DNA from: Pleodorina starrii
Lineage: Eukaryota > Chlorophyta > Chlorophyceae > Chlamydomonadales > Volvocaceae
DNA: 64,000 nucleotides
Direction of reading: 5' to 3'
Assembly (NCBI GenBank): GCA_030267565.1
Contig: BRXU01000009.1
Span: 3,492,315 to 3,556,314 of the forward strand
Shown here: in pieces, positions 19,313 through 58,156 of the stretch
Layout of the letters: each line of letters begins with the position of its first letter
Position numbering within the stretch: the stretch's first letter is position 1
Made by a program: the position numbers and the translations under genes
Notes under the pieces: model-generated
What the model saw: the letters and a program-made list of their open reading frames with translations, nothing else
What the model was told of the DNA's origin: nothing
The model's database searches: none

Positions 19313-19316
19313 AAGA

Positions 19317-19598
19317 TGTTGTAGTGAGATACGTAGGTAAATACCTTTGTCTCAGGCCGGCACTGCCCCGGCCACGGTATTTACTACCGTGCTCAGAATC
19401 GAATCAGAACTTAACGCCCAGTCATCGTTCTTTCTGTGAGCAAAGACGGCTTCGAGATTCGTGATTGTCGTACAGATTCTAGAATACTCGTTCAAGAGAT
19501 ATTCTATACTATTCGGAAGGTTCTGTTATCGGTAATTCGATAATCATAATCATATTCAATAATTCGTATAAGTACTGTGTAGCCATCACGCTACAACA
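19317..19598 (-). repeat. 5' LTR of left element
   Basis: 282 bp with the same TGTTGTAG/CTACAACA ends as the 3' LTR and one visible base difference from it. It should hold the element promoter. The junction with the satellite is ACA/TAGGC. Confidence 0.95.
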
Positions 19599-19603
19599 TA
19601 GGC
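19599..19603. repeat. Target-site duplication TAGGC (upstream flank of left element)
   Basis: This is the second copy of the 5-bp duplication at 13413-13417. After it the satellite resumes with GGTTGGCAATTGTGC. Confidence 0.95.
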
Positions 19604-25600: not shown

Positions 25601-28600
25601 TTTCTTGACACCGTAACTACGGTCATGACCGTGCTCGAGCAAGGTCCCCAATAAATACCGCCACTACGGTCAAGACCGTGCTCAGCATGCTCGAGCGTGC
25701 TCAGCCACGCCAGTGCAGATTTAGCCTGCCAAAATGCAGTGGTAAAGCTTCTATAGCTGTGTCTAGCAACGCAGAGCACGGTGTCAAAGTGGGCGCTTCC
25801 CTGTGGCGCGCGCGCCGGCAATTGTGCAGGTCGACTGCATGGGACCTGTCGTATGCCTGAGTGGCGGCCACTCAGGCGTACGACAGGTCCCACTCGCACT
25901 AAAGGATTTGTTTTGCTCGTGATACTGTTTCCGTTGAACTTTCTTTGACAAAACCATAACTTTTACCTTTATTCGTTTTTCTTTGGCAATGTTAGGCGGT
26001 TGGCAATTGTGCTGGTCGATTGCATGGGACCTGTCGTACGCGTGAGTGGCGGCCTCTCAGGCGTACGACAGCTCCCACTCGCACTAAAGGATTTGTTTTG
26101 CTCGGCCTTGGTGTGTGATACTGTTTCCTTTGAACTTTCTTGACACCGTAACTACGGTCATGACCGTGCTCGAGCACGGTCCCCAATAAATACCGCCACT
26201 ACGGTCAAGACCGTGCTCAGCATGCTCGAGCGTGCTCAGCCACGCCAGTGCAGATTTAGCCTGCCAAAATGCAGTGGTAAAGTTTCTATAGCTGTGTCAA
26301 CGCAGAGCACGGTGTCAAAGTGGGCGCTTCCCTGTGGCGCGCGCGCACGCCGGCAATTGTGCTGGTCGACTGCATGGGACCTGTCGTACGCCTGAGTGGC
26401 GGCCACTCAGGCGTACGACAGGTCCCACTCGCACTAAAGGATTTGTTTTGCTCGTGATACTGTTTCCGTTGAACTTTCTTTGACAAAACCATAACTTTTA
26501 CCTTTATTCGTTTTTCTTTGGCAATGTTAGGCGGTTGGCAATTGTGCTGGTCGATTGCATGGGACCTGTCGTACGCGTGAGTGGCGGCCTCTCAGGCGTA
26601 CGACAGCTCCCACTCGCACTAAAGGATTTGTTTTGCTCGGCCTTGGTGTGTGATACTGTTTCCTTTGAACTTTCTTGACACCGTAACTACGGTCATGACC
26701 GTGCTCGAGCACGGTCCCCAATAAATACCGCCACTACGGTCAAGACCGTGCTCAGCATGCTCGAGCGTGCTCAGCCACGCCAGTGCAGATTTAGCCTGCC
26801 AAAATGCAGTGGTAAAGTTTCTATAGCTGTGTCAACGCAGAGCACGGTGTCAAAGTGGGCGCTTCCCTGTGGCGCGCGCGCGCGCCGGCAATTGTGCTGG
26901 TCGACTGCATGCATGGGACCTGTCGTACGCCTGAGTGGCGGCCACTCAGGCGTACGACAGGTCCCACTCGCACTAAAGGATTTGTTTTGCTCGTGATACT
27001 GTTTCCGTTGAACTTTCTTTGACAAAACCATAACTTTTACCTTTATTCGTTTTTCTTTGGCAATGTTAGGCGGTTGGCAATTGTGCTGGTCGATTGCATG
27101 GGACCTGTCGTACGCGTGAGTGGCGGCCTCTCAGGCGTACGACAGCTCCCACTCGCACTAAAGGATTTGTTTTGCTCGGCCTTGGTGTGTGATACTGTTT
27201 CCTTTGAACTTTCTTGACACCGTAACTACGGTCATGACCGTGCTCGAGCACGGTCCCCAATAAATACCGCCACTACGGTCAAGACCGTGCTCAGCATGCT
27301 CGAGCGTGCTCAGCCACGCCAGTGCAGATTTAGCCTGCCAAAATGCAGTGGTAAAGTTTCTATAGCTGTGTCTAGCCACGCAGAGCACGGTGTCAAAGTG
27401 GGCGCTTCCCTGTGGCGCGCGCGCCGGCAATAATTGTGCTGGTCGACTGCATGGGACCTGTCGTACGCCTGAGTGGCGGCCACTCAGGCGTACGACAGGT
27501 CCCACTCGCACTAAAGGATTTGTTTTGCTCGTGATACTGTTTCCGTTGAACTTTCTTTGACAAAACCATAACTTTTACCTTTATTCGTTTTTCTTTGGCA
27601 ATGCTAGGCGGTTGGCAATTTTGCTGGTCGAATGCATGGGACATGTCGTACGCCTGAGTGGCGGCCTCTCAGGCGTACGACAGCTCCCACTCGCACTAAA
27701 GGATTTGTTTTGCTCGGCCTTGGTGTGTGATACTGTTTCCTTTGAACTTTCTTGACACCGTAACTACGGTCATGACCGTGCTCGAGCAAGGTCCCCAATA
27801 AATACCGCCACTACGGTCAAGACCGTGCTCAGCATGCTCGAGCGTGCTCAGCCACGCCAGTGCAGATTTAGCCTGCCCAAATGCAGTGGTAAAGTTTCTA
27901 TAGCTGTGTCAACGCAGAGCACGGTGTCAAAGTGGGCGCTTCCCTGTGGCGCGCGCGCCGGCAATTGTGCTAGTCGACTGCATGGGACCTGTCGTACGCC
28001 TGAGTGGCGGCCACTCAGGCGTACGACAGGTCCCACTCGCACTAAAGGATTTGTTTTGCTCGTGATACTGTTTCCGTTGAACTTTCTTTGACAAAACCAT
28101 AACTTTTACCTTTATTCGTTTTTCTTTGGCAATGTTAGGCGGTTGGCAATTGTGCTGGTCGATTGCATGGGACCTGTCGTACGCGTGAGTGGCGGCCTCT
28201 CAGGCGTACGACAGCTCCCACTCGCACTAAAGGATTTGTTTTGCTCGGCCTTGGTGTGTGATACTGTTTCCTTTGAACTTTCTTGACACCGTAACTACGG
28301 TCATGACCGTGCTCGAGCACGGTCCCCAATAAATACCGCCACTACGGTCAAGACCGTGCTCAGCATGCTCGAGCGTGCTCAGCCACGCCAGTGCAGATTT
28401 AGCCTGCCAAAATGCAGTGGTAAAGTTTCTATAGCTGTGTCAACGCAGAGCACGGTGTCAAAGTGGGCGCTTCCCTGTGGCGCGCGCGCCGGCAATAATT
28501 GTGCTGGTCGACTGCATGCATGGGACCTGTCGTACGCCTGAGTGGCGGCCACTCAGGCGTACGACAGGTCCCACTCGCACTAAAGGATTTGTTTTGCTCG

Positions 28601-31173
28601 TGATACTGTTTCCGTTGAACTTTCTTTGACAAAACCATAACTTTTACCTTTATTCGTTTTTCTTTGGCAATGTTAGGCGGTTGGCAATTGTGCTGGTCGA
28701 TTGCATGGGACCTGTCGTACGCGTGAGTGGCGGCCTCTCAGGCGTACGACAGGTCCCACTCGCACTAAAGGATTTGTTTTGCTCGGCCTTGGTGTGTGAT
28801 ACTGTTTCCTTTGAACTTTCTTGACACCGTAACTACGGTCATGACCGTGCTCGAGCACGGTCCCCAATAAATACCGCCACTACGGTCAAGACCGTGCTCA
28901 GCATGCTCGAGCGTGCTCAGCCACGCCAGTGCAGATTTAGCCTGCCAAAATGCAGTGGTAAAGTTTCTATAGCTGTGTCTAGCAACGCAGAGCACGGTGT
29001 CAAAGTGGGCGCTTCCCTGTGGCGCGCGCGCCGGCAATAATTGTGCTGGTCGACTGCATGGGACCTGTCGTACGCCTGAGTGGCGGCCACTCAGGCGTAC
29101 GACAGGTCCCACTCGCACTAAAGGATTTGTTTTGCTCGTGATACTGTTTCCGTTGAACTTTCTTTGACAAAACCATAACTTTTACCTTTATTCGTTTTTC
29201 TTTGGCAATGCTAGGCGGTTGGCAATTGTGCTGGTCGACTGCATGGGACCTGTCGTACGCCTGAGTGGCGGCCACTCAGGCGTACGACAGGTCCCACTCG
29301 CACTAAAGGATTTGTTTTGCTTGTGATACTGTTTCCGTTGAACTTTCTTTGACAAAACCATAACTTTTACCTTTATTCGTTTTTCTTTGGCAATGTTAGG
29401 CGGTTGGCAATTGTGCTGGTCGATTGCATGGGACCTGTCGTACGCGTGAGTGGCTACCTCTCAGGCGTACGACAGCTCCCACTCGCACTAAAGGATTTGT
29501 TTTGCTCGGCCTTGGTGTGTGATACTGTTTCCTTTGAACTTTCTTGACACCGTAACTACGGTCATGACCGTGCTCGAGCAAGGTCCCCAATAAATACCGC
29601 CACTACGGTCAAGACCGTGCTCAGCATGCTCGAGCGTGCTCAGCCACGCCAGTGCAGATTTAGCCTGCCAAAATGCAGTGGTAAAGTTTCTATAGCTGTG
29701 TCAACGCAGAGCACGGTGTCAAAGTGGGCGCTTCCCTGTGGCGCGCGCGCCGGCAATTGTGCTGGTCGACTGCATGGGACCTGTCGTACGCCTGAGTGGC
29801 GGCCACTCAGGCGTACGACAGGTCCCACTCGCACTAAAGGATTTGTTTTGCTCGTGATACTGTTTCCGTTGAACTTTCTTTGACAAAACCATAACTTTTA
29901 CCTTTATTCGTTTTTCTTTGGCAATGTTAGGCGGTTGGCAATTGTGCTGGTCGACTGCATGGGACCTGTCGTACGCCTGAGTGGCGGCCTCTCAGGCGTA
30001 CGACAGGTCCCACTCGCACTAAAGGATTTGTTTTGCTCGGCCTTGGTGTGTGATACTGTTTCCTTTGAACTTTCTTGACACCGTAACTACGGTCATGACC
30101 GTGCTCGAGCACGGTCCCCAATAAATACCGCCACTACGGTCAAGACCGTGCTCAGCATGCTCGAGCGTGCTCAGCCACGCCAGTGCAGATTTAGCCTGCC
30201 AAAATGCAGTGGTAAAGTTTCTATAGCTGTGTCTAGCAACGCAGAGCACGGTGTCAAAGTGGGCGCTTCCCTGTGGCGCGCGCGCCGGCAATAATTGTGC
30301 TGGTCGACTGCATGGGACCTGTCGTACGCCTGAGTGGCGGCCACTCAGGCGTACGACAGGTCCCACTCGCACTAAAGGATTTGTTTTGCTCGTGATACTG
30401 TTTCCGTTGAACTTTCTTTGACAAAACCATAACTTTTACCTTGATTCGTTTTTCTTTGGCAATGTTAGGCGGTTGGCAATTGAGCTGGTCGACTGCATGG
30501 GACATGTCGTACGCCTGAGTGGCGGCCTCTCAGGCGTACGACAGGTCCCACTCGCACTAAAGGATTTGTTTTGCTCGGCCTTGGTGTGTGATACTGTTTC
30601 CTTTGAACTTTCTTGACACCGTAACTACGGTCATGACCGTGCTCGAGCACGGTCCCCAATAAATACCGCCACTACGGTCAAGACCGTGCTCAGCATGCTC
30701 GAGCGTGCTCAGCCACGCCAGTGCAGATTTAGCCTGCCAAAATGCAGTGGTAAAGCTTCTATAGCTGTGTCTAGCCACGCAGAGCACGGTGTCAAAGTGG
30801 GCGCTTCCCTGTGGCGCGCGCGCCGGCAATAATTGTGCTGGTCGACTGCATGGGACCTGTCGTACGCCTGAGTGGCGGCCACTCAGGCGTACGACAGGTC
30901 CCACTCGCACTAAAGGATTTGTTTTGCTCGTGATACTGTTTCCGTTGAACTTTCTTTGACAAAACCATAACTTTTACCTTTATTCGTTTTTCTTTGGCAA
31001 TGTTAGGCGGTTGGCAATTGTGCTGGTCGATTGCATGGGACATGTCGTACGCCTGAGTGGCGGCCTCTCAGGCGTACGACAGGTCCCACTCGCACTAAAG
31101 GATTTGTTTTGCTCGGCCTTGGTGTGTGATACTGTTTCCTTTGAACTTTCTTGACACCGTAACTACGGTCATG

Positions 31174-31191
31174 ACCGTGCTCGAGCACGGT
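31174..31191. repeat. 18-bp perfect palindrome of the L module (representative)
   Basis: ACCGTGCTCGAGCACGGT is its own reverse complement. It lies in nearly every L module, between an AACTACGGTCATG segment and CCCCAATAAATACCG. The following ~60 bp add further short inverted motifs (GCATGC, CTCGAG, GAGC/GCTC). Confidence 0.9.
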
Positions 31192-31382
31192 CCCCAATAA
31201 ATACCGCCACTACGGTCAAGACCGTGCTCAGCATGCTCGAGCGTGCTCAGCCACGCCAGTGCAGATTTAGCCTGCCAAAATGCAGTGGCAAAGTTTCTAT
31301 AGCTGTGTCAACGCAGAGCACGGTGTCAAAGTGGGCGCTTCCCTGTGGCGCGCGCGCCGGCAATTGTGCTGGTCGACTGCAT

Positions 31383-31433
31383 GGGACCTGTCGTACGCCT
31401 GAGTGGCGGCCACTCAGGCGTACGACAGGTCCC
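31383..31433. repeat. 51-nt hairpin of the satellite core (representative copy)
   Basis: Two 25-nt arms starting GGGACCTGTCGTACG are perfectly complementary around a single central G. The same hairpin, with small variants, is present once in each L and once in each S module, so the window has well over a hundred copies. Common variants (GTACACC, GTACGCGTGAG, CCTCTCAGG) break one or two pairs, which argues against strong selection for perfect pairing. Confidence 0.9.
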
Positions 31434-34400
31434 ACTCGCACTAAAGGATTTGTTTTGCTCGTGATACTGTTTCCGTTGAACTTTCTTTGACAAAACCATA
31501 ACTTTTACCTTTATTCGTTTTTCTTTGGCAATGTTAGGCGGTTGGCAATTGTGCTGGTCGATTGCATGGGACATGTCGTACGCCTGAGTGGCGGCCTCTC
31601 AGGCGTACGACAGGTCCCACTCGCACTAAAGGATTTGTTTTGCTCGGCCTTGGTGTGTGATACTGTTTCCTTTGAACTTTCTTGACACCGTAACTACGGT
31701 CATGACCGTGCTCGAGCACGGTCCCCAATAAATACCGCCACTACGGTCAAGACCGTGCTCAGCATGCTCGAGCGTGCTCAGCCACGCCAGTGCAGATTTA
31801 GCCTGCCAAAATGCAGTGGTAAAGTTTCTATAGCTGTGTCTAGCAACGCAGAGCACGGTGTCAAAGTGGGCGCTTCCCTGTGGCGCGCGCGCCGGCAATA
31901 ATTGTGCTGGTCGACTGCATGGGACCTGTCGTACGCCTGAGTGGCGGCCACTCAGGCGTACGACAGGTCCCACTCGCACTAAAGGATTTGTTTTGCTCGT
32001 GATACTGTTTCCGTTGAACTTTCTTTGACAAAACCATAACTTTTACCTTATTCGTTTTTCTTTGGCAATGTTAGGCGGTTGGCAATTGTGCTGGTCGACT
32101 GCATGGGACCTGTCGTACGCCTGAGTGGCGGCCTCTCAGGCGTACGACAGGTCCCACTCGCACTAAAGGATTTGTTTTGCTCGGCCTTGGTGTGTGATAC
32201 TGTTTCCTTTGAACTTTCTTGACACCGTAACTACGGTCATGACCGTGCTCGAGCACGGTCCCCAATAAATACCGCCACTACGGTCAAGACCGTGCTCAGC
32301 ATGCTCGAGCGTGCTCAGCCACGCCAGTGCAGATTTAGCCTGCCAAAATGCAGTGGTAAAGTTTCTATAGCTGTGTCTAGCAACGCAGAGCACGGTGTCA
32401 AAGTGGGCGCTTCCCTGTGGCGCGCGCGCCGGCAATTGTGCTGGTCGACTGCATGGGACCTGTCGTACGCCTGAGTGGCGGCCACTCAGGCGTACGACAG
32501 GTCCCACTCGCACTAAAGGATTTGTTTTGCTCGTGATACTGTTTCCGTTGAACTTTCTTTGACAAAACCATAACTTTTACCTTTATTCGTTTTTCTTTGG
32601 CAATGTTAGGCGGTTGGCAATTGAGCTGGTCGACTGCATGGGACATGTCGTACGCCTGAGTGGCGGCCTCTCAGGCGTACGACAGGTCCCACTCGCACTA
32701 AAGGATTTGTTTTGCTCGGCCTTGGTGTGTGATACTGTTTCCTTTGAACTTTCTTGACACCGTAACTACGGTCATGACCGTGCTCGAGCACGGTCCCCAA
32801 TAAATACCGCCACTACGGTCAAGACCGTGCTCAGCATGCTCGAGCGTGCTCAGCCACGCCAGTGCAGATTTAGCCTGCCAAAATGCAGTGGTAAAGTTTC
32901 TATAGCTGTGTCTAGCAACGCAGAGCACGGTGTCAAAGTGGGCGCTTCCCTGTGGCGCGCGCGCCGGCAATTGTGCTGGTCGACTGCATGGGACCTGTCG
33001 TACGCCTGAGTGGCGGCCACTCAGGCGTACGACAGGTCCCACTCGCACTAAAGGATTTGTTTTGCTCGTGATACTGTTTCCGTTGAACTTTCTTTGACAA
33101 AACCATAACTTTTACCTTTATTCGTTTTTCTTTGGCAATGTTAGGCGGTTGGCAATTGTGCTGGTCGATTGCATGGGACCTGTCGTACGCCTGAGTGGCG
33201 GCCTCTCAGGCGTACGACAGGTCCCACTCGCACTAAAGGATTTGTTTTGCTCGGCCTTGGTGTGTGATACTGTTTCCTTTGAACTTTCTTGACACCGTAA
33301 CTACGGTCATGACCGTGCTCGAGCACGGTCCCCAATAAATACCGCCACTACGGTCAAGACCGTGCTCAGCATGCTCGAGCGTGCTCAGCCACGCCAGTGC
33401 AGATTTAGCCTGCCAAAATGCAGTGGTAAAGTTTCTATAGCTGTGTCTAGCAACGCAGAGCACGGTGTCAAAGTGGGCGCTTCCCTGTGGCGCGCGCGCC
33501 GGCAATAATTGTGCTGGTCGACTGCATGGGACCTGTCGTACGCCTGAGTGGCGGCCACTCAGGCGTACGACAGGTCCCACTCGCACTAAAGGATTTGTTT
33601 TGCTCGTGATACTGTTTCCGTTGAACTTTCTTTGACAAAACCATAACTTTTACCTTTATTCGTTTTTCTTTGGCAATGCTAGGCGGTTGGCAATTGTGCT
33701 GGTCGAATGCATGGGACATGTCGTACGCCTGAGTGGCGGCCTCTCAGGCGTACGACAGGTCCCACTCGCACTAAAGGATTTGTTTTGCTCGGCCTTGGTG
33801 TGTGATACTGTTTCCTTTGAACTTTCTTGACACCGTAACTACGGTCATGACCGTGCTCGAGCACGGTCCCCAATAAATACCGCCACTACGGTCAAGACCG
33901 TGCTCAGCATGCTCGAGCGTGCTCAGCCACGCCAGTGCAGATTTAGCCTGCCAAAATGCAGTGGTAAAGTTTCTATAGCTGTGTCTAGCAACGCAGAGCA
34001 CGGTGTCAAAGTGGGCGCTTCCCTGTGGCGCGCGCGCCGGCAATAATTGTGCTGGTCGACTGCATGGGACCTGTCGTACGCCTGAGTGGCGGCCACTCAG
34101 GCGTACGACAGGTCCCACTCGCACTAAAGGATTTGTTTTGCTCGTGATACTGTTTCCGTTGAACTTTCTTTGACAAAACCATAACTTTTACCTTTATTCG
34201 TTTTTCTTTGGCAATGTTAGGCGGTTGGCAATTGTGCTGGTCGACTGCATGGGACCTGTCGTACGCCTGAGTGGCGGCCTCTCAGGCGTACGACAGGTCC
34301 CACTCGCACTAAAGGATTTGTTTTGCTCGGCCTTGGTGTGTGATACTGTTTCCTTTGAACTTTCTTGACACCGTAACTACGGTCATGACCGTGCTCGAGC

Positions 34401-37400
34401 ACGGTCCCCAATAAATACCGCCACTACGGTCAAGACCGTGCTCAGCATGCTCGAGCGTGCTCAGCCACGCCAGTGCAGATTTAGCCTGCCAAAATGCAGT
34501 GGTAAAGTTTCTATAGCTGTGTCTAGCAACGCAGAGCACGGTGTCAAAGTGGGCGCTTCCCTGTGGCGCGCGCGCCGGCAATTGTGCTGGTCGACTGCAT
34601 GGGACCTGTCGTACGCCTGAGTGGCGGCCACTCAGGCGTACGACAGGTCCCACTCGCACTAAAGGATTTGTTTTGCTCGTGATACTGTTTCCGTTGAACT
34701 TTCTTTGACAAAACCATAACTTTTACCTTTATTCGTTTTTCTTTGGCAATGTTAGGCGGTTGGCAATTGTGCTGGTCGACTGCATGGGACCTGTCGTACG
34801 CCTGAGTGGCGGCCACTCAGGCGTACGACAGGTCCCACTCGCACTAAAGGATTTGTTTTGCTCGGCCTTGGTGTGTGATACTGTTTCCTTTGAACTTTCT
34901 TGACACCGTAACTACGGTCATGACCGTGCTCGAGCACGGTCCCCAATAAATACCGCCACTACGGTCAAGACCGTGCTCAGCATGCTCGAGCGTGCTCAGC
35001 CACGCCAGTGCAGATTTAGCCTGCCAAAATGCAGTGGTAAAGTTTCTATAGCTGTGTCTAGCAACGCAGAGCACGGTGTCAAAGTGGGCGCTTCCCTGTG
35101 GCGCGCGCGCCGGCAATAATTGTGCTGGTCGACTGCATGGGACCTGTCGTACGCCTGAGTGGCGGCCACTCAGGCGTACGACAGGTCCCACTCGCACTAA
35201 AGGATTTGTTTTGCTCGTGATACTGTTTCCGTTGAACTTTCTTTGACAAAACCATAACTTTTATTCGTTTATCTTTGGCAATGTTAGGCGGTTGGCAATT
35301 GTGCTGGTCGACTGCATGGGACCTGTCGTACACCTGAGTGGCGGCCACTCAGGCGTACGACAGGTCCCACTCGCACTAAAGGATTTGTTTTGCTCGGCCT
35401 TGGTGTGTGATACTGTTTCCTTTGAACTTTCTTGACACCGTAACTACGGTCATGACCGTGCTCGAGCACGGTCCCCAATAAATACCGCCACTACGGTCAA
35501 GACCGTGCTCAGCATGCTCGAGCGTGCTCAGCCACGCCAGTGCAGATTTAGCCTGCCAAAATGCAGTGGTAAAGTTTCTATAGCTGTGTCTAGCAACGCA
35601 GAGCACGGTGTCAAAGTGGGCGCTTCCCTGTGGCGCGCGCGCCGGCAATACTGGTGCTGGACGACTGCATGGGACCTGTCGTACGCCTGAGTGGCGGCCA
35701 CTCAGGCGTACGACAGGTCCCACTCGCACTAAAGGATTTGTTTTGCTCGTGATACTGTTTCCGTTGAACTTTCTTTGACAAAACCATAACTTTTACCTTT
35801 ATTCGTTTTTCTTTGGCAATGTTAGGCGGTTGGCAATTGTGCTGGTCGATTGCATGGGACCTGTCGTACGCCTGAGTGGCGGCCTCTCAGGCGTACGACA
35901 GGTCCCACTCGCACTAAAGGATTTGTTTTGCTCGGCCTTGGTGTGTGATACTGTTTCCTTTGAACTTTCTTGACACCGTAACTACGGTCATGACCGTGCT
36001 CGAGCACGGTCCCCAATAAATACCGCCACTACGGTCAAGACCGTGCTCAGCATGCTCGAGCGTGCTCAGCCACGCCAGTGCAGATTTAGCCTGCCAAAAT
36101 GCAGTGGTAAAGTTTCTATAGCTGTGTCTAGCAACGCAGAGCACGGTGTCAAAGTGGGCGCTTCCCTGTGGCGCGCGCGCCGGCAATATTGGTGCTGGTC
36201 GACTGCATGGGACCTGTCGTACGCCTGAGTGGCGGCCACTCAGGCGTACGACAGGTCCCACTCGCACTAAAGGATTTGTTTTGCTCGTGATACTGTTTCC
36301 GTTGAACTTTCTTTGACAAAACCATAACTTTTATTCGTTTATCTTTGGCAATGTTAGGCGGTTGGCAATTGTGCTGGTCGACTGCATGGGACCTGTCGTA
36401 CACCTGAGTGGCGGCCACTCAGGCGTACGACAGGTCCCACTCGCACTAAAGGATTTGTTTTGCTCGGCCTTGGTGTGTGATACTGTTTCCTTTGAACTTT
36501 CTTGACACCGTAACTACGGTCATGACCGTGCTCGAGCACGGTCCCCAATAAATACCGCCACTACGGTCAAGACCGTGCTCAGCATGCTCGAGCGTGCTCA
36601 GCCACGCCAGTGCAGATTTAGCCTGCCAAAATGCAGTGGTAAAGTTTCTATAGCTGTGTCTAGCAACGCAGAGCACGGTGTCAAAGTGGGCGCTTCCCTG
36701 TGGCGCGCGCGCCGGCAACAATTGTGCTGGTCGACTGCATGGGACCTGTCGTACGCCTGAGTGGCGGCCACTCAGGCGTACGACAGGTCCCACTCGCACT
36801 AAAGGATTTGTTTTGCTCGTGATACTGTTTCCGTTGAACTTTCTTTGACAAAACCATAACTTTTATTCGTTTATCTTTGGCAATGTTAGGCGGTTGGCAA
36901 TTGTGCTGGTCGACTGCATGGGACCTGTCGTACACCTGAGTGGCGGCCACTCAGGCGTACGACAGGTCCCACTCGCACTAAAGGATTTGTTTTGCTCGGC
37001 CTTGGTGTGTGATACTGTTTCCTTTGAACTTTCTTGACACCGTAACTACGGTCATGACCGTGCTCGAGCACGGTCCCCAATAAATACCGCCACTACGGTC
37101 AAGACCGTGCTCAGCATGCTCGAGCGTGCTCAGCCACGCCAGTGCAGATTTAGCCTGCCAAAATGCAGTGGTAAAGTTTCTATAGCTGTGTCTAGCAACG
37201 CAGAGCACGGTGTCAAAGTGGGCGCTTCCCTGTGGCGCGCGCGCCGGCAATAATTGTGCTGGTCGACTGCATGGGACCTGTCGTACGCCTGAGTGGCGGC
37301 CACTCAGGCGTACGACAGGTCCCACTCGCACTAAAGGATTTGTTTTGCTCGTGATACTGTTTCCGTTGAACTTTCTTTGACAAAACCATAACTTTTACCT

Positions 37401-38780
37401 TATTCGTTTTTCTTTGGCAATGTTAGGCGGTTGGCAATTGTGCTGGTCGACTGCATGGGACCTGTCGTACGCCTGAGTGGCGGCCACTCAGGCGTACGAC
37501 AGGTCCCACTCGCACTAAAGGATTTGTTTTGCTCGGCCTTGGTGTGTGATACTGTTTCCTTTGAACTTTCTTGACACCGTAACTACGGTCATGACCGTGC
37601 TCGAGCACGGTCCCCAATAAATACCGCCACTACGGTCAAGACCGTGCTCAGCATGCTCGAGCGTGCTCAGCCACGCCAGTGCAGATTTAGCCTGCCAAAA
37701 TGCAGTGGTAAAGTTTCTATAGCTGTGTCTAGCAACGCAGAGCACGGTGTCAAAGTGGGCGCTTCCCTGTGGCGCGCGCGCCGGCATTGGTGCGGGTCGA
37801 CTGCATGGGACCTGTCGTACGCCTGAGTGGCGGCCACTCAGGCGTACGACAGGTCCCACTCGCACTAAAGGATTTGTTTTGCTCGTGATACTGTTTCCGT
37901 TGAACTTTCTTTGACAAAACCATAACTTTTATTCGTTTTTCTTTGGCAATGTTAGGCGGTTGGCAATTGTGCTGGTCGACTGCATGGGACCTGTCGTACG
38001 CCTGAGTGGCGGCCACTCAGGCGTACGACAGGTCCCACTCGCACTAAAGGATTTGTTTTGCTCGGCCTTGGTGTGTGATACTGTTTCCTTTGAACTTTCT
38101 TGACACCGTAACTACGGTCATGACCGTGCTCGAGCACGGTCCCCAATAAATACCGCCACTACGGTCAAGACCGTGCTCAGCATGCTCGAGCGTGCTCAGC
38201 CACGCCAGTGCAGATTTAGCCTGCCAAAATGCAGTGGTAAAGTTTCTATAGCTGTGTCTAGCAACGCAGAGCACGGTGTCAAAGTGGGCGCTTCCCTGTG
38301 GCGCGCGCGCCGGCAATAATTGTGCTGGTCGACTGCATGGGACCTGTCGTACGCCTGAGTGGCGGCCACTCAGGCGTACGACAGGTCCCACTCGCACTAA
38401 AGGATTTGTTTTGCTCGTGATACTGTTTCCGTTGAACTTTCTTTGACAAAACCATAACTTTCTTATTCGTTTATCTTTGGCAATGTTAGGCGGTTGGCAA
38501 TTGTGCTGGTCGACTGCATGGGACCTGTCGTACGCCTGAGTGGCGGCCACTCAGGCGTACGTCAGGTCCCACTCGCACTAAAGGATTTGTTTTGCTCGGC
38601 TGGTGATACTGTTTCCTTTGAACTTTCTGGACACCGTAATCTACGGTCTTGACCGTGCCGAGCACGCGGTCCCCATAAATACCGCCACTACGGGTCAAGA
38701 CCGAGCTCAGCATGCTCGAGCGTGCTCAGCCACGCCTAGTGCAGATTTAGCCTGCCTAAATGCAGTGGATAAAGTTTAAT

Positions 38781-38796
38781 ACATCGTCGTGTCGTG
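38781..38796. other. 16-mer barcode-like tag, left side of adapter (artefact)
   Basis: ACATCGTCGTGTCGTG is not part of any satellite unit and is the exact reverse complement of 38846-38861. From memory it matches a standard PacBio 16-nt barcode (I believe bc1020). Satellite sequence stops immediately before it, at AAAGTTTAAT. Confidence 0.9.
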
Positions 38797-38845
38797 ATTC
38801 TCTCTCTTTTCCTCCTACTCCCCCGTTGTTGTTGTTGAGAGAGAT
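38797..38845. other. PacBio SMRTbell hairpin adapter left in the assembly (artefact)
   Basis: The segment reads ATT, then CTCTCTCTTTTCCTCCT, a slightly corrupted C/T stretch, then GTTGTTGTTGTTGAGAGAGA and T. That is the SMRTbell adapter as I remember it, with a few single-base errors (an extra T at 38798-38799, and an A plus extra Cs at 38817-38824). The AT-CTCTCTC and GAGAGAG-AT ends pair as the adapter stem. It is flanked by identical 16-mers in inverse orientation and then by the same satellite position in inverse orientation, exactly as in an unsplit polymerase read. Confidence 0.95.
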
Positions 38846-38861
38846 CACGACACGACGATGT
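38846..38861. other. 16-mer barcode-like tag, right side of adapter (artefact)
   Basis: CACGACACGACGATGT follows the adapter directly and precedes the satellite, which resumes at TAGAAACTTTACC on the opposite strand. Confidence 0.9.
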
Positions 38862-41800
38862 TAGAAACTTTACCACTGCATTTTGGCAGGCTAAATCTGC
38901 ACTGGCGTGGCTGAGCACGCTCGAGCATGCTGAGCACGGTCTTGACCGTAGTGGCGGTATTTATTGGGGACCGTGCTCGAGCACGGTCATGACCGTAGTT
39001 ACGGTGTCAAGAAAATTCAAAGGAAACAGTATCACACACCAAGGCCGAGCAAAACAAATCCTTTAGTGCGAGTGGGACCTGTCGTAAGCCTGAGAGGCCG
39101 CCACTCAGGCGTACGACAGGTCCCATGCAGTCGACCAGCACAATTGCCAACCGCCTAACATTGCCCAACAACAACGAATAAAGAAAGTTATGGTTTTGTC
39201 AAAGAAAGTTCAACGGAAACAGTATCACGAGCAAAACAAATCCTTTAGTGCGAGTGGGACCTGTCGTACGCCTGAGTGGCCGCCACTCAGGCGTACGACA
39301 GGTCCCATGCAGTCGACCAGCACAATTGCCGGCGCGCGCGCCACAGGGAAGCGCCCACTTTGACACCGTGCTCTGCGTTGCTAGACACAGCTATAGAAGC
39401 TTTACCACTGCATTTTGGCAGGCTAAATCTGCACTGGCGTGGCTGAGCACGCTCGAGCATGCTGAGCACGGTCTTGACCGTAGTGGCGGTATTTATTGGG
39501 GACCGTGCTCGAGCACGGTCATGACCGTAGTTACGGTGTCAAGAAAGTTCAAAGGAAACAGTATCACACACCAAGGCCGAGCAAAACAAATCCTTTAGTG
39601 CGAGTGGGACCTGTCGTACGCCTGAGAGGCCGCCACTCAGGCGTACGACATGGCCCATGCAATCGACCAGCACAATTGCCAACCGCCTAACATTGCCAAA
39701 GAAAAACGAATAAGGTAAAGTTATGGTTTTGTCAAGAAAGTTCAACGGAAACAGTATCACGAGCAAAACAAATCCTTTAGTGCGAGTGGGACCTGTCGTA
39801 CGCCTGAGTGGCCGCCACTCAGGCGTACGACAGGTCCCATGCAGTCGACCAGCACAATTGCCGGCGCGCGCGCCACAGGGAAGCGCCCACTTTGACACCG
39901 TGCTCTGCGTTGCTAGACACAGCTATAGAAACTTTACCACTGCATTTTGGCAGGCTAAATCTGCACTGGCGTGGCTGAGCACGCTCGAGCATGCTGAGCA
40001 CGGTCTTGACCGTAGTGGCGGTATTTATTGGGGACCGTGCTCGAGCACGGTCATGACCGTAGTTACGGTGTCAAGAAAGTTCAAAGGAAACAGTATCACA
40101 CACCAAGGCCGAGCAAAACAAATCCTTTAGTGCGAGTGGGACCTGTCGTACGCCTGAGAGGCCGCCACTCAGGCGTACGACAGGTCCCATGCAATCGACC
40201 AGCACAATTGCCAACCGCCTAACATTGCCAAAGAAAAACGAATAAAGGTAAAAGTTATGGTTTTGTCAAAGAAAGTTCAACGGAAACAGTATCACGAGCA
40301 AAACAAATCCTTTAGTGCGAGTGGGACCTGTCGTACGCCTGAGTGGCCGCCACTCAGGCGTACGACAGGTCCCATGCAGTCGACCAGCACAATTGCCGGC
40401 GCGCGCGCCACAGGGAAGCGCCCACTTTGACACCGTGCTCTGCGTTGCTAGACACAGCTATAGAAACTTTACCACTGCATTTTGGCAGGCTAAATCTGCA
40501 CTGGCGTGGCTGAGCACGCTCGAGCATGCTGAGCACGGTCTTGACCGTAGTGGCGGTATTTATTGGGGACCGTGCTCGAGCACGGTCATGACCGTAGTTA
40601 CGGTGTCAAGAAAGTTCAAAGGAAACAGTATCACACACCAAGGCCGAGCAAAACAAATCCTTTAGTGCGAGTGGGACCTGTCGTACGCCTGAGAGGCCGC
40701 CACTCACGCGTACGACAGGTCCCATGCAATCGACCAGCACAATTGCCAACCGCCTAACATTGCCAAAGAAAAACGAATAAAGGTAAAAGTTATGGTTTTG
40801 TCAAAGAAAGTTCAACGGAAACAGTATCACGAGCAAAACAAATCCTTTAGTGCGAGTGGGACCTGTCGTACGCCTGAGTGGCCGCCACTCAGGCGTACGA
40901 CAGGTCCCATGCAGTCGACCAGCACAATTGCCGGCGCGCGCGCCACAGGGAAGCGCCCACTTTGACACCGTGCTCTGCGTTGCTAGACACAGCTATAGAA
41001 GCTTTACCACTGCATTTTGGCAGGCTAAATCTGCACTGGCGTGGCTGAGCACGCTCGAGCATGCTGAGCACGGTCTTGACCGTAGTGGCGGTATTTATTG
41101 GGGACCGTGCTCGAGCACGGTCATGACCGTAGTTACGGTGTCAAGAAAGTTCAAAGGAAACAGTATCACACACCAAGGCCGAGCAAAACAAATCCTTTAG
41201 TGCGAGTGGGACCTGTCGTACGCCTGAGAGGCCGCCACTCAGGCGTACGACATGGCCCATGCAATCGACCAGCACAATTGCCAACCGCCTAACATTGCCA
41301 AAGAAAAACGAATAAAGGTAAAAGTTATGGTTTTGTCAAAGAAAGTTCAACGGAAACAGTATCACGAGCAAAACAAATCCTTTAGTGCGAGTGGGACCTG
41401 TCGTACGCCTGAGTGGCCGCCACTCAGGCGTACGACAGGTCCCATGCAGTCGACCAGCACAATTGCCGGCGCGCGCGCCACAGGGAAGCGCCCACTTTGA
41501 CACCGTGCTCTGCGTTGCTAGACACAGCTATAGAAACTTTACCACTGCATTTTGGCAGGCTAAATCTGCACTGGCGTGGCTGAGCACGCTCGAGCATGCT
41601 GAGCACGGTCTTGACCGTAGTGGCGGTATTTATTGGGGACCGTGCTCGAGCACGGTCATGACCGTAGTTACGGTGTCAAGAAAGTTCAAAGGAAACAGTA
41701 TCACACACCAAGGCCGAGCAAAACAAATCCTTTAGTGCGAGTGGGACCTGTCGTACGCCTGAGAGGCCGCCACTCAGGCGTACGACATGGCCCATGCAAT

Positions 41801-44800
41801 CGACCAGCACAATTGCCAACCGCCTAACATTGCCAAACAAAACGAATAAAGGTAAAAGTTATGGTTTTGTCAAAGAAAGTTCAACGGAAACAGTATCACG
41901 AGCAAAACAAATCCTTTAGTGCGAGTGGGACCTGTCGTACGCCTGAGTGGCCGCCACACAGGCGTACGACAGGTCCCATGCCGTCGACCAGCACAAATTC
42001 CGGCGCGCGCGCCACAGGGAAGCGCCCACTTTGACACCGTGCTCTGCGTTGCTAGACACAGCTATAGAAACTTTACCACTGCATTTTGGCAGGCTAAATC
42101 TGCACTGGCGTGGCTGAGCACGCTCGAGCATGCTGAGCACGGTCTTGACCGTAGTGGCGGTATTTATTGGGGACCGTGCTCGAGCACGGTCATGACCGTA
42201 GTTACGGTGTCAAGAAAGTTCAAAGGAAACAGTATCACACACCAAGGCCGAGCAAAACAAATCCTTTAGTGCGAGTGGGACCTGTCGTACGCCTGAGAGG
42301 CCGCCACTCAGGCGTACGACAGGTCCCATGCAATCGACCAGCACAATTGCCAACCGCCTAACATTGCCAAAGATAAACGAATAAAGGTAAAAGTTATGGT
42401 TTTGTCAAAGAAAGTTCAACGGAAACAGTATCACGAGCAAAACAAATCCTTTAGTGCGAGTGGGACCTGTCGTACGCCTGAGTGGCCGCCACTCAGGCGT
42501 ACGACAGGTCCCATGCAGTCGACCAGCACAATTGCCGGCGCGCGCGCCACAGGGAAGCGCCCACTTTGACACCGTGCTCTGCGTTGCTAGACACAGCTAT
42601 AGAAGCTTTACCACTGCATTTTGGCAGGCTAAATCTGCACTGGCGTGGCTGAGCACGCTCGAGCATGCTGAGCACGGTCTTGACCGTAGTGGCGGTATTT
42701 ATTGGGGACCGTGCTCGAGCACGGTCATGACCGTAGTTACGGTGTCAAGAAAGTTCAAAGGAAACAGTATCACACACCAAGGCCGAGCAAAACAAATCCT
42801 TTAGTGCGAGTGGGACCTGTCGTACGCCTGAGAGGCCGCCACTCAGGCGTACGACAGGTCCCATGCAATCGACCAGCACAATTGCCAACCGCCTAACATT
42901 GCCAAAGAAAAACGAATAAAGGTAAAAGTTATGGTTTTGTCAAAGAAAGTTCAACGGAAACAGTATCACGAGCAAAACAAATCCTTTAGTGCGAGTGGGA
43001 CCTGTCGTACGCCTGAGTGGCCGCCACTCAGGCGTACGACAGGTCCCATGCAGTCGACCAGCACAATTGCCGGCGCGCGCGCCACAGGGAAGCGCCCACT
43101 TTGACACCGTGCTCTGCGTTGCTAGACACAGCTATAGAAACTTTACCACTGCATTTTGGCAGGCTAAATCTGCACTGGCGTGGCTGAGCACGCTCGAGCA
43201 TGCTGAGCACGGTCTTGACCGTAGTGGCGGTATTTATTGGGGACCGTGCTCGAGCACGGTCATGACCGTAGTTACGGTGTCAAGAAAGTTCAAAGGAAAC
43301 AGTATCACACACCAAGGCCGAGCAAAACAAATCCTTTAGTGCGAGTGGGACCTGTCGTACGCCTGAGAGGCCGCCACTCAGGCGTACGACATGTCCCATG
43401 CAATCGACCAGCACAATTGCCAACCGCCTAACATTGCCAAAGAAAAACGAATAAAGGTAAAAGTTATGGTTTTGTCAAAGAAAGTTCAACGGAAACAGTA
43501 TCACGAGCAAAACAAATCCTTTAGTGCGAGTGGGACCTGTCGTACGCCTGAGTGGCCGCCACTCAGGCGTACGACAGGTCCCATGCAGTCGACCAGCACA
43601 ATTGCCGGCGCGCGCGCCACAGGGAAGCGCCCACTTTGACACCGTGCTCTGCGTTGCTAGACACAGCTATAGAAACTTTACCACTGCATTTTGGCAGGCT
43701 AAATCTGCACTGGCGTGGCTGAGCACGCTCGAGCATGCTGAGCACGGTCTTGACCGTAGTGGCGGTATTTATTGGGGACCGTGCTCGAGCACGGTCATGA
43801 CCGTAGTTACGGTGTCAAGAAAGTTCAAAGGAAACAGTATCACACACCAAGGCCGAGCAAAACAAATCCTTTAGTGCGAGTGGGACCTGTCGTACGCCTG
43901 AGAGGCCGCCACTCAGGCGTACGACATGTCCCATGCAATCGACCAGCACAATTGCCAACCGCCTAACATTGCCAAAGAAAACGAATAAGGTAAAAGTTAT
44001 GGTTTTGTCAAAGAAAGTTCAACGGAAACAGTATCACGAGCAAAACAAATCCTTTAGTGCGAGTGGGACCTGTCGTACGCCTGAGTGGCCGCCACTCAGG
44101 CGTACGACAGGTCCCATGCAGTCGACCAGCACAATTGCCGGCGCGCGCGCCACAGGGAAGCGCCCACTTTGACACCGTGCTCTGCGTTGCTAGACACAGC
44201 TATAGAAGCTTTACCACTGCATTTTGGCAGGCTAAATCTGCACTGGCGTGGCTGAGCACGCTCGAGCATGCTGAGCACGGTCTTGACCGTAGTGGCGGTA
44301 TTTATTGGGGACCGTGCTCGAGCACGGTCATGACCGTAGTTACGGTGTCAAGAAAGTTCAAAGGAAACAGTATCACACACCAAGGCCGAGCAAAACAAAT
44401 CCTTTAGTGCGAGTGGGACCTGTCGTACGCCTGAGAGGCCGCCACTCAGGCGTACGACAGGTCCCATGCAATCGACCAGCACAATTGCCAACCGCCTAAC
44501 ATTGCCAAAGAAAAACGAATAAAGGTAAAAGTTATGGTTTTGTCAAAGAAAGTTCAACGGAAACAGTATCACGAGCAAAACAAATCCTTTAGTGCGAGTG
44601 GGACCTGTCGTACGCCTGAGTGGCCGCCACTCAGGCGTACGACAGGTCCCATGCAGTCGACCAGCACAATTGCCGGCGCGCGCGCCACAGGGAAGCGCCC
44701 ACTTTGACACCGTGCTCTGCGTTGCTAGACACAGCTATAGAAACTTTACCACTGCATTTTGGCAGGCTAAATCTGCACTGGCGTGGCTGAGCACGCTCGA

Positions 44801-47800
44801 GCATGCTGAGCACGGTCTTGACCGTAGTGGCGGTATTTATTGGGGACCGTGCTCGAGCACGGTCATGACCGTAGTTACGGTGTCAAGAAAGTTCAAAGGA
44901 AACAGTATCACACACCAAGGCCGAGCAAAACAAATCCTTTAGTGCGAGTGGGACCTGTCGTACGCCTGAGAGGCCGCCACTCAGGCGTACGACATGGCCC
45001 ATGCAATCGACCAGCACAATTGCCAACCGCCTAACATTGCCAAAGAAAAACGAATAAAGGTAAAAGTTATGGTTTTGTCAAAGAAAGTTCAACGGAAACA
45101 GTATCACGAGCAAAACAAATCCTTTAGTGCGAGTGGGACCTGTCGTACGCCTGAGTGGCCGCCACTCAGGCGTACGACAGGTCCCATGCAGTCGACCAGC
45201 ACAATTGCCGGCGCGCGCGCCACAGGGAAGCGCCCACTTTGACACCGTGCTCTGCGTTGCTAGACACAGCTATAGAAACTTTACCACTGCATTTTGGCAG
45301 GCTAAATCTGCACTGGCGTGGCTGAGCACGCTCGAGCATGCTGAGCACGGTCTTGACCGTAGTGGCGGTATTTATTGGGGACCGTGCTCGAGCACGGTCA
45401 TGACCGTAGTTACGGTGTCAAGAAAGTTCAAAGGAAACAGTATCACACACCAAGGCCGAGCAAAACAAATCCTTTAGTGCGAGTGGGACCTGTCGTACGC
45501 CTGAGAGGCCGCCACTCAGGCGTACGACAGGTCCCATGCAGTCGACCAGCACAATTGCCAACCGCCTAACATTGCCAAAGAAAAACGAATAAAGGTAAAA
45601 GTTATGGTTTTGTCAAAGAAAGTTCAACGGAAACAGTATCACGAGCAAAACAAATCCTTTAGTGCGAGTGGGACCTGTCGTACGCCTGAGTGGCCGCCAC
45701 TCAGGCGTACGACAGGTCCCATGCAGTCGACCAGCACAATTGCCGGCGCGCGCGCCACAGGGAAGCGCCCACTTTGACACCGTGCTCTGCGTTGCTAGAC
45801 ACAGCTATAGAAACTTTACCACTGCATTTTGGCAGGCTAAATCTGCACTGGCGTGGCTGAGCACGCTCGAGCATGCTGAGCACGGTCTTGACCGTAGTGG
45901 CGGTATTTATTGGGGACCGTGCTCGAGCACGGTCATGACCGTAGTTACGGTGTCAAGAAAGTTCAAAGGAAACAGTATCACACACCAAGGCCGAGCAAAA
46001 CAAATCCTTTAGTGCGAGTGGGACCTGTCGTACGCCTGAGAGGCCGCCACTCAGGCGTACGACATGTCCCATGCAATCGACCAGCACAATTGCCAACCGC
46101 CTAACATTGCCAAAGAAAAACGAATAAAGGTAAAAGTTATGGTTTTGTCAAAGAAAGTTCAACGGAAACAGTATCACGAGCAAAACAAATCCTTTAGTGC
46201 GAGTGGGACCTGTCGTACGCCTGAGTGGCCGCCACTCAGGCGTACGACAGGTCCCATGCAGTCGACCAGCACAATTGCCGGCGCGCGCGCCACAGGGAAG
46301 CGCCCACTTTGACACCGTGCTCTGCGTTGCTAGACACAGCTATAGAAACTTTACCACTGCATTTTGGCAGGCTAAATCTGCACTGGCGTGGCTGAGCACG
46401 CTCGAGCATGCTGAGCACGGTCTTGACCGTAGTGGCGGTATTTATTGGGGACCGTGCTCGAGCACGGTCATGACCGTAGTTACGGTGTCAAGAAAGTTCA
46501 AAGGAAACAGTATCACACACCAAGGCCGAGCAAAACAAATCCTTTAGTGCGAGTGGGACCTGTCGTACGCCTGAGAGGCCGCCACTCAGGCGTACGACAT
46601 GTCCCATGCAATCGACCAGCACAATTGCCAACCGCCTAACATTGCCAAAGAAAAACGAATAAAGGTAAAAGTTATGGTTTTGTCAAAGAAAGTTCAACGG
46701 AAACAGTATCACGAGCAAAACAAATCCTTTAGTGCGAGTGGGACCTGTCGTACGCCTGAGTGGCCGCCACTCAGGCGTACGACAGGTCCCATGCAGTCGA
46801 CCAGCACAATTGCCGGCGCGCGCGCCACAGGGAAGCGCCCACTTTGACACCGTGCTCTGCGTTGCTAGACACAGCTATAGAAACTTTACCACTGCATTTT
46901 GGCAGGCTAAATCTGCACTGGCGTGGCTGAGCACGCTCGAGCATGCTGAGCACGGTCTTGACCGTAGTGGCGGTATTTATTGGGGACCGTGCTCGAGCAC
47001 GGTCATGACCGTAGTTACGGTGTCAAGAAAGTTCAAAGGAAACAGTATCACACACCAAGGCCGAGCAAAACAAATCCTTTAGTGCGAGTGGGACCTGTCG
47101 TACGCCTGAGAGGCCGCCACTCAGGCGTACGACATGTCCCATGCAATCGACCAGCACAATTGCCAACCGCCTAACATTGCCAAAGAAAAACGAATAAAGG
47201 TAAAAGTTATGGTTTTGTCAAAGAAAGTTCAACGGAAACAGTATCACGAGCAAAACAAATCCTTTAGTGCGAGTGGGACCTGTCGTACGCCTGAGTGGCC
47301 GCCACTCAGGCGTACGACAGGTCCCATGCAGTCGACCAGCACAATTGCCGGCGCGCGCGCCACAGGGAAGCGCCCACTTTGACACCGTGCTCTGCGTTGC
47401 TAGACACAGCTATAGAAACTTTACCACTGCATTTTGGCAGGCTAAATCTGCACTGGCGTGGCTGAGCACGCTCGAGCATGCTGAGCACGGTCTTGACCGT
47501 AGTGGCGGTATTTATTGGGGACCGTGCTCGAGCACGGTCATGACCGTAGTTACGGTGTCAAGAAAGTTCAAAGGAAACAGTATCACACACCAAGGCCGAG
47601 CAAAACAAATCCTTTAGTGCGAGTGGGACCTGTCGTACGCCTGAGAGGCCGCCACTCAGGCGTACGACAGGTCCCATGCAGTCGACCAGCACAATTGCCA
47701 ACCGCCTAACATTGCCAAAGAAAAACGAATAAAGGTAAAGTTATGGTTTTGTCAAAGAAAGTTCAACGGAAACAGTATCACGAGCAAAACAAATCCTTTA

Positions 47801-50800
47801 GTGCGAGTGGGACCTGTCGTACGCCTGAGTGGCCGCCACTCAGGCGTACGACAGGTCCCATGCAGTCGACCAGCACAATTGCCGGCGCGCGCGCCACAGG
47901 GAAGCGCCCACTTTGACACCGTGCTCTGCGTTGACACAGCTATAGAAACTTTGCCACTGCATTTTGGCAGGCTAAATCTGCACTGGCGTGGCTGAGCACG
48001 CTCGAGCATGCTGAGCACGGTCTTGACCGTAGTGGCGGTATTTATTGGGGACCTTGCTCGAGCACGGTCATGACCGTAGTTACGGTGTCAAGAAAGTTCA
48101 AAGGAAACAGTATCACACGCCAAGGCCGAGAAAAAACAAATCCTTTAGTGCGAGTGGGACCTGTCGTACGCCTGAGAGGCCGCCACTCAGGCGTACGACA
48201 TGGCCCATGCAATCGACCAGCACAATTGCCGGCACGCGCGCCACAGGGAAGCGCCCACTTTGACACCGTGCTCTGCGTTGACACAGCTATAGAAACTTTA
48301 CCACTGCATTTTGGCAGGCTAAATCTGCACTGGCGTGGCTGAGCACGCTCGAGCACGCTGAGCACGGTCTTGACCGTAGTGGCGGCACAATTGCCAACCG
48401 CCTAACATTGCCAAAGAAAAACGAATAAAGGTAAAAGTTATGGTTTTGTCAAAGAAAGTTCAACGGAAACAGTATCACGAGCAAAACAAATCCTTTAGTG
48501 CGAGTGGGACCTGTCGTACGCCTGAGTGGCCGCCACTCAGGCGTACGACAGGTCCCATGCAGTCGACCAGCACAATTATTGCCGGCGCGCGCGCCACAGG
48601 GAAGCGCCCACTTTGACACCGTGCTCTGCGTTGCTAGACACAGCTATAGAAACTTTACCACTGCATTTTGGCAGGCTAAATCTGCACTGGCGTGGCTGAG
48701 CACGCTCGAGCATGCTGAGCACGGTCTTGACCGTAGTGGCGGTATTTATTGGGGACCGTGCTCGAGCACGGTCATGACCGTAGTTACGGTGTCAAGAAAG
48801 TTCAAAGGAAACAGTATCACACACCAAGGCCGAGCAAAACAAATCCTTTAGTGCGAGTGGGACCTGTCGTACGCCTGAGTGGCCGCCACTCAGGTGTACG
48901 ACAGGTCCCATGCAGTCGACCAGCACAATTGCCAACCGCCTAACATTGCCAAAGATAAACGAATAAAAGTTATGGTTTTGTCAAAGAAAGTTCAACGGAA
49001 ACAGTATCACGAGCAAAACAAATCCTTTAGTGCGAGTGGGACCTGTCGTACGCCTGAGTGGCCGCCACTCAGGCGTACGACAGGTCCCATGCAGTCGACC
49101 AGCACAATTATTGCCGGCGCGCGCGCCACAGGGAAGCGCCCACTTTGACACCGTGCTCTGCGTTGCTAGACACAGCTATAGAAACTTTACCACTGCATTT
49201 TGGCAGGCTAAATCTGCACTGGCGTGGCTGAGCACGCTCGAGCATGCTGAGCACGGTCTTGACCGTAGTGGCGGTATTTATTGGGGACCGTGCTCGAGCA
49301 CGGTCATGACCGTAGTTACGGTGTCAAGAAAGTTCAAAGGAAACAGTATCACACACCAAGGCCGAGCAAAACAAATCCTTTAGTGCGAGTGGGACCTGTC
49401 GTACGCCTGAGAGGCCGCCACTCAGGCGTACGACAGGTCCCATGCAGTCGACCAGCACAATTGCCAACCGCCTAACATTGCCAAAGATAAACGAATAAAA
49501 GTTATGGTTTTGTCAAAGAAAGTTCAACGGAAACAGTATCACGAGCAAAACAAATCCTTTAGTGCGAGTGGGACCTGTCGTACGCCTGAGTGGCCGCCAC
49601 TCAGGCGTACGACAGGTCCCATGCAGTCGACCAGCACAATTGCCGGCGCGCGCGCCACAGGGAAGCGCCCACTTTGACACCGTGCTCTGCGTTGCTAGAC
49701 ACAGCTATAGAAACTTTACCACTGCATTTTGGCAGGCTAAATCTGCACTGGCGTGGCTGAGCACGCTCGAGCATGCTGAGCACGGTCTTGACCGTAGTGG
49801 CGGTATTTATTGGGGACCGTGCTCGAGCACGGTCATGACCGTAGTTACGGTGTCAAGAAAGTTCAAAGGAAACAGTATCACACACCAAGGCCGAGCAAAA
49901 CAAATCCTTTAGTGCGAGTGGGACCTGTCGTACGCCTGAGTGGCCGCCACTCAGGCGTACGACAGGTCCCATGCAGTCGACCAGCACAATTGCCAACCGC
50001 CTAACATTGCCAAAGATAAACGAATAAAAGTTATGGTTTTGTCAAAGAAAGTTCAACGGAAACAGTATCACGAGCAAAACAAATCCTTTAGTGCGAGTGG
50101 GACCTGTCGTACGCCTGAGTGGCCGCCACTCAGGCGTACGACAGGTCCCATGCAGTCGACCAGCACAATTATTGCCGGCGCGCGCGCCACAGGGAAGCGC
50201 CCACTTTGACACCGTGCTCTGCGTTGCTAGACACAGCTATAGAAACTTTACCACTGCATTTTGGCAGGCTAAATCTGCACTGGCGTGGCTGAGCACGCTC
50301 GAGCATGCTGAGCACGGTCTTGACCGTAGTGGCGGTATTTATTGGGGACCGTGCTCGAGCACGGTCATGACCGTAGTTACGGTGTCAAGAAAGTTCAAAG
50401 GAAACAGTATCACACACCAAGGCCGAGCAAAACAAATCCTTTAGTGCGAGTGGGACCTGTCGTACGCCTGAGTGGCCGCCACTCAGGTGTACGACAGGTC
50501 CCATGCAGTCGACCAGCACAATTGCCAACCGCCTAACATTGCCAAAGATAAACGAAATTAGGTAATGTTATTGTTTTGTCAAAGAAAGTTCAACGGAAAC
50601 AGTATCACGAGCAAAACAAATCCTTTAGTGCGAGTGGGACCTGTCGTACGCCTGAGTGGCCGCCACTCAGGCGTACGACAGGTCCCATGCAGTCGACCAG
50701 CACAATTATTGCCGGCGCGCGCGCCACAGGGAAGCGCCCACTTTGACACCGTGCTCTGCGTTGCTAGACACAGCTATAGAAACTTTACCACTGCATTTTG

Positions 50801-56800: not shown

Positions 56801-57850
56801 AAGATAAACGAATAAAAGTTATGGTTTTGTCAAAGAAAGTTCAACGGAAACAGTATCACGAGCAAAACAAATCCTTTAGTGCGAGTGGGACCTGTCGTAC
56901 GCCTGAGTGGCCGCCACTCAGGCGTACGACAGGTCCCATGCAGTCGACCAGCACAATTATTGCCGGCGCGCGCGCCACAGGGAAGCGCCCACTTTGACAC
57001 CGTGCTCTGCGTTGCTAGACACAGCTATAGAAACTTTACCACTGCATTTTGGCAGGCTAAATCTGCACTGGCGTGGCTGAGCACGCTCGAGCATGCTGAG
57101 CACGGTCTTGACCGTAGTGGCGGTATTTATTGGGGACCGTGCTCGAGCACGGTCATGACCGTAGTTACGGTGTCAAGAAAGTTCAAAGGAAACAGTATCA
57201 CACACCAAGGCCGAGCAAAACAAATCCTTTAGTGCGAGTGGGACCTGTCGTACGCCTGAGTGGCCGCCACTCAGGTGTACGACAGGTCCCATGCAGTCGA
57301 CCAGCACAATTGCCAACCGCCTAACATTGCCAAAGATAAACGAATAAAAGTTATGGTTTTGTCAAAGAAAGTTCAACGGAAACAGTATCACGAGCAAAAC
57401 AAATCCTTTAGTGCGAGTGGGACCTGTCGTACGCCTGAGTGGCCGCCACTCAGGCGTACGACAGGTCCCATGCAGTCGACCAGCACAATTATTGCCGGCG
57501 CGCGCGCCACAGGGAAGCGCCCACTTTGACACCGTGCTCTGCGTTGCTAGACACAGCTATAGAAACTTTACCACTGCATTTTGGCAGGCTAAATCTGCAC
57601 TGGCGTGGCTGAGCACGCTCGAGCATGCTGAGCACGGTCTTGACCGTAGTGGCGGTATTTATTGGGGACCGTGCTCGAGCACGGTCATGACCGTAGTTAC
57701 GGTGTCAAGAAAGTTCAAAGGAAACAGTATCACACACCAAGGCCGAGCAAAACAAATCCTTTAGTGCGAGTGGGACCTGTCGTACGCCTGAGTGGCCGCC
57801 ACTCAGGTGTACGACAGGTCCCATGCAGTCGACCAGCACAATTGCCAACC
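38862..57850 (-). repeat. Satellite array in inverse orientation, probably a read-through mirror of 19604-38780
   Basis: There are again 34 L modules (anchors 38964, 39496, 40028 and so on to 57662). Counting from the retrotransposon, the long intervals are the 3rd, 4th, 6th and 16th (902, 912, 717, 704 bp), the same places as in the left arm. Unit signatures do not mirror exactly: GTACACC-type units fill 48.7-57.8 kb and GGCCTCTCAGG-type units 39-48.7 kb. That fits consensus building from mis-placed reads. It should not be used as independent evidence of array size or orientation. Confidence 0.85.
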
Positions 57851-57855
57851 GCCTA
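57851..57855. repeat. Target-site duplication, reads GCCTA on this strand
   Basis: This is the reverse complement of TAGGC, directly before the LTR at 57856 and at the same unit position as in the left copy. The partner copy lies beyond the window. Confidence 0.9.
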
Positions 57856-58137
57856 TGTTGTAGCGTGATGGCTACACAGTACTTATACGAATTATTGAAT
57901 ATGATTATGATTATCGAATTACCGATAACAGAACCTTCCGAATAGTATAGAATATCTCTTGAACGAGTATTCTAGAATCTGTACGACAATCACGAATCTC
58001 GAAGCCGTCTTTGCTCACAGAAAGAACGATGACTGGGCGTTAAGTTCTGATTCGATTCTGAGCACGGTAGTAAATACCGTGGCCGGGGCAGTGCCGGCCT
58101 GAGACAAAGGTATTTACCTACGTATCTCACTACAACA
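57856..58137 (+). repeat. 5' LTR of right copy
   Basis: 282 bp from TGTTGTAG to CTACAACA. It carries GGGCGTTAAG, the 5'-LTR form of the single mismatch seen between the LTRs. Confidence 0.95.
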
Positions 58138-58141
58138 TCTT

Positions 58142-58156
58142 TGGTGTCTCAGCAAC
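58142..58156 (+). promoter_or_regulatory. Putative primer binding site of right copy
   Basis: TGGTGTCTCAGCAAC, 4 nt after the LTR, as in the left copy. Confidence 0.6.

Follow-up and report, generated by a model that had tools for sequence, protein, structure and literature searches.

Palindrome at the end of the contig

The end of contig C9 raises the question of whether its giant palindrome, in which a satellite array turns round at a short central element and a retrotransposon appears at both outer ends, belongs to the genome or was made on the way to the assembly. The window, by which we mean the whole stretch of 64,000 bases that was analysed (C9:3492315-3556314), ends with the last base of the contig (3,556,314 bases in length), so the right arm of the palindrome is a terminal tail. 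The large features are as follows.

13418..19598, minus strand: LTR retrotransposon with reverse transcriptase, RNase H, integrase and chromo domains
13454..38780, plus strand: left palindrome arm (25,327 bases), continuous with the remainder of contig C9; contains the LTR retrotransposon and then the satellite array
38862..64000, minus strand: right arm (25,139 bases), mirrored copy of the left arm up to the last contig base; putative artefact
57856..64000, plus strand: second retrotransposon copy, mirrored (outer 6,559 bases identical to the left arm), with 36 bases lost at the contig end; putative artefact

The palindrome reported in the preliminary description is real as sequence, with 13454-38780 mirroring 64000-38862. 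The two arms differ in length by 188 bases, and their global alignment (25,478 columns) contains 24,772 matches, 216 substitutions and 79 indel events. The alignment has no difference at all across the left-arm stretch from 13454 to 20000, and the outermost 6,559 bases (13454-20012 vs 64000-57442) show unbroken identity. This identical stretch comprises the retrotransposon, its junction with the array and 414 bases of array beyond. The mirror ends at 13454 and 64000, 36 bases inside the LTR; the assembler may have broken the contig at this repeat boundary.

An adapter and a barcode at the centre

The centre of the palindrome (38781-38861) is laid out as an inverse 16-mer, a core and a 16-mer, in agreement with the preliminary description, and can be divided into three features.

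38781..38796, minus strand: inverse copy of PacBio barcode BC1020, exact reverse complement of 38846-38861
38797..38845, plus strand: PacBio SMRTbell blunt adapter core, by alignment (45 bases expected, 49 present)
38846..38861, plus strand: PacBio barcode BC1020, sequence CACGACACGACGATGT, identical to the published barcode

Each 16-mer occurs once within the window and is the exact reverse complement of the other. Judged by its sequence, the whole element is an untrimmed barcoded SMRTbell hairpin adapter, consisting of inverse BC1020, the 45-base PacBio blunt adapter and BC1020. The sequence of this adapter is printed in two papers (PMC8864876; PMC10172123, there as UniVec NGB00972.1 Pacific Biosciences Blunt Adapter). 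The 16-mer CACGACACGACGATGT is listed as BC1020_Forward in a table of PMC7962047, and is also present, without a name, in barcoded primers of PMC11069185 and PMC12005355. The preliminary description had taken the layout for that of a barcoded SMRTbell end, and the published adapter and barcode sequences bear this out.

The whole construct has 77 bases, of which 76 were matched in the alignment; the element shows one substitution and contains four additional bases. The adapter core accounts for both kinds of change (44/45 adapter bases present), and BC1020 is exact on both sides, once as the known barcode and once as its reverse complement. The longest exact run, of 39 bases, starts at 38823 and covers half of the adapter plus the barcode. 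The best local score of the adapter was 39.5 at the central site and 15.0 elsewhere in the window, and three mononucleotide shuffles of the window gave maxima of 15.5, 16.5 and 14.5. The element and the reference (UniVec NGB00972.1 with BC1020) thus have the adapter core, the barcode and their order in common, and differ by the four inserted bases and the one substitution, which would be expected of an uncorrected long read.

In the primers of PMC11069185 and PMC12005355 a five-base pad precedes the barcode, whereas here the barcode abuts the adapter without a pad. A barcoded adapter would therefore fit better than a barcoded PCR primer. The order of inverse barcode, adapter and barcode without a pad is what we take to be the layout of a barcoded SMRTbell adapter. 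In the barcoded-adapter design a T overhang and an A tail lie between barcode and insert; a T is found after the barcode at 38862, and the left side reads T, not A, at 38780, within a stretch that is rich in errors (see below).

We then searched the genome (136,057,477 bases in 95 contigs) for further copies. An exact search with the 16-mer returned the two copies at 38781-38861 and no other, and the 21-base right part and the 19-base left part of the adapter, each with at most one mismatch allowed, were found at a single place in the whole genome, the central site. An ungapped search of the whole genome with the 41-base core and up to three mismatches gave no match; it missed even the central site, where the insertions break up an ungapped match. 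A few extra bases can thus hide an adapter from a gapless search with the whole core, while short pieces still detect it.

Mirrored arms

On either side of the adapter the satellite breaks off at the same point of its unit (AAAGTTT / AAACTTT), as the preliminary description had noted. All 43 satellite anchors to the left of the adapter are in one orientation and all 35 to the right in the opposite one. Units were counted with an anchor that is found once per unit, with two adjacent right-arm pieces (357 and 347 bases) merged into one, and each arm has 33 units between its first and last anchor. In both arms, the units of odd length (outside 525-545 bases) are those with zero-based ordinals 2, 3, 5 and 15. 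Under random placement such a match of ordinals would arise by chance once in 40,920, a value that depends on the merging of the two pieces. Two of the odd units are unequal between the arms (836 vs 717 bases, and 723 vs 704, the latter being the merged pieces).

The retrotransposon has identical LTRs of 282 bases (13418-13699 and 19317-19598) and a 5-base target duplication, TAGGC; the open frames of the mirrored copy lie at 58373-59143 and 59745-63767. Six other copies of the element, which were the best listed after 40 of the 137 candidates for related copies had been scored, were compared letter by letter and showed 53-59 mismatches in 4,387 sites each, that is over 1%. As the two arms are identical here and the six other copies compared are more than 1% different, both arms represent the same locus. 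The element is inserted in the satellite array, and related copies at about 99% identity are found on many contigs. These copies point to recent activity of the retrotransposon.

Origin of the fold-back

What follows the adapter in the contig has almost certainly arisen by mis-assembly and does not reflect biology. We consider it highly probable (about 0.96) that a SMRTbell adapter was missed, and that a read which had turned back at the hairpin extended contig C9 over its own sequence. A SMRTbell is a closed hairpin, and the sequence beyond the adapter is therefore the opposite strand of the same fragment. Past the adapter the insert does continue as its own reverse complement, the retrotransposon and its junction being identical and the number of units and the order of the odd ones being mirrored.

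Our data show the identity of the adapter, the mirroring of the arms and the contig end; the course of events is our reconstruction. A fragment from a barcoded PacBio library, with one end in the satellite array, would have been closed by a SMRTbell hairpin with BC1020, and the polymerase would have read this fragment, passed round the hairpin and returned along the opposite strand. The read software would then have failed to recognise and cut the adapter. Such a fused read would have been taken into the assembly where contig C9 ends, within an array that the assembler could not cross, and the contig would have been extended back over its own sequence to 64000. One particular read was probably responsible for the fold-back.

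Similar events are known from the literature. Missed adapters are put at about 1% of early PacBio reads in PMC3504050, and palindromic reads due to a missed SMRTbell adapter are called potentially harmful to assembly in PMC6218980. Among the assembly errors described in PMC8864876 is Type D, in which adapter sequence lies within a contig and is flanked by an inverted duplication, and our case is an instance of this type. Here, in contrast, the duplicated part forms the last 25 kb of a contig and lies in a satellite array, and the data studied in PMC8864876 were HiFi data. The artificial palindromes of whole-genome amplification (PMC6218980) likewise involve an inverted duplication at read level that misleads assembly. 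Those palindromes arise by amplification, however, and missed SMRTbell adapters are named in that paper as a separate source of the same structure.

Fine variants and alternative explanations

The preliminary description went further and held that the sequence to the right is probably the same molecule read back. The retrotransposon and the mirrored count and order of units agree with this, whereas the fine variants of the satellite do not. When the 29 regular units were paired by mirror position, their mean edit distance was 11.7, as compared to 12.0 for shuffled pairs, and 1574 of 5000 shuffles were as good or better. BLAST alignment of the inner array gave 98.37% identity in the mirror register vs 98.51% when shifted about one unit, and among 62 aligned units of the array (19599-57855) the two arms carry different blocks of unit variants. 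The satellite variants themselves come as linked flavours (for example a 6-base together with a 3-base indel), in blocks that differ between the arms.

Since the fine variants of the regular units fail to mirror, the right arm does not repeat the left one base for base. Agreement in fine variants would be expected of raw passes of one molecule, but a repeat consensus need not keep it. In our reading, the gross structure probably comes from one fused read, and the local letters were probably replaced by a consensus of array reads that were placed at random.

Read-like noise is found at the very centre, as seen from the following feature.

38601..38780, plus strand: error-rich stretch adjoining the adapter, from 60-base tiles compared with the nearest array sequence outside the centre

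The tiles at 38601 and 38661 have 5 edits each per 60 bases, as compared to at most 1 in 40 control tiles, and a right-side tile at 39162 also has 5. The last 60 bases before the adapter were compared with the right arm only. The final unit before the adapter, in the left arm, has 26 private differences (17 substitutions and 9 indel columns), while none of the other 61 aligned units has more than 6. This noise fits low coverage at the contig end.

The differences between the arms, in fine variants and by 188 bases in length, could also be explained if the adapter is real and two different molecules are involved, the right arm having been mis-joined from another copy of the array or from the other homologue. 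We regard this as very unlikely, because a hairpin adapter closes one molecule and is followed by the opposite strand of that molecule. A second molecule would also have to share the retrotransposon, the junction and the 414 array bases letter for letter, when six other copies of the element differ by more than 1%, and to match in having 33 units with the odd ones at the same ordinals.

Still less probable is a real head-to-head inverted array with two copies of the retrotransposon, into whose centre an adapter-bearing read came by chance. Satellite arrays can contain inversions and the palindrome is present in the assembly, but this reading requires a fragment end placed precisely at the centre of symmetry, and the inverted part reaches the contig end, so that no unique sequence lies beyond it. 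The same satellite also forms a large array on another contig (C6:4738767-4796526), where 87 of 87 anchors are in one orientation, and inversion is therefore not habitual for the satellite there; nor is any of the 43 anchors to the left of the adapter inverted. The units of the C6 array are mostly near 539 bases in length, rather than 532-535. We had also considered a subtelomeric satellite, and dropped the idea because the C6 array, at 4.74-4.80 Mb in a contig of 5.31 Mb, shows that the satellite also occurs away from contig ends.

Inverted repeats with a perfect stem of 16 bases and a spacer are common in nature. That the central element is one of these and resembles an adapter by accident is nevertheless practically negligible as an explanation, given 76 of 77 bases matching a specific synthetic construct with an exact published barcode, a score of 39.5 against 14.5-16.5 elsewhere in the window or in the three shuffles, and a single copy in spite of its place within a satellite.

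Consequences for the assembly and other repeats

With the missed adapter as the preferred explanation, our analysis supports the earlier view that the palindrome, the inverted array and the second retrotransposon are assembly artefacts. Contig C9 should be cut after 38780 and the sequence beyond discarded. About 25 kb of the contig, including one apparent copy of the retrotransposon and the whole inverted array, should not be counted in studies of repeats, copy number or palindromes.

Two other kinds of repeats were observed. Arrays of TTTTAGGG, a Chlamydomonas-type telomere repeat, are found, among the matches listed, at the start of one contig (C2:3-362) and in the interior of another (C1, near 2.70, 3.59, 7.52 and 9.40 Mb), with at least 229 matches in forward and at least 254 in reverse orientation. 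The window itself also contains a minisatellite at 6637-6946, with 16 copies of a 19-base unit.
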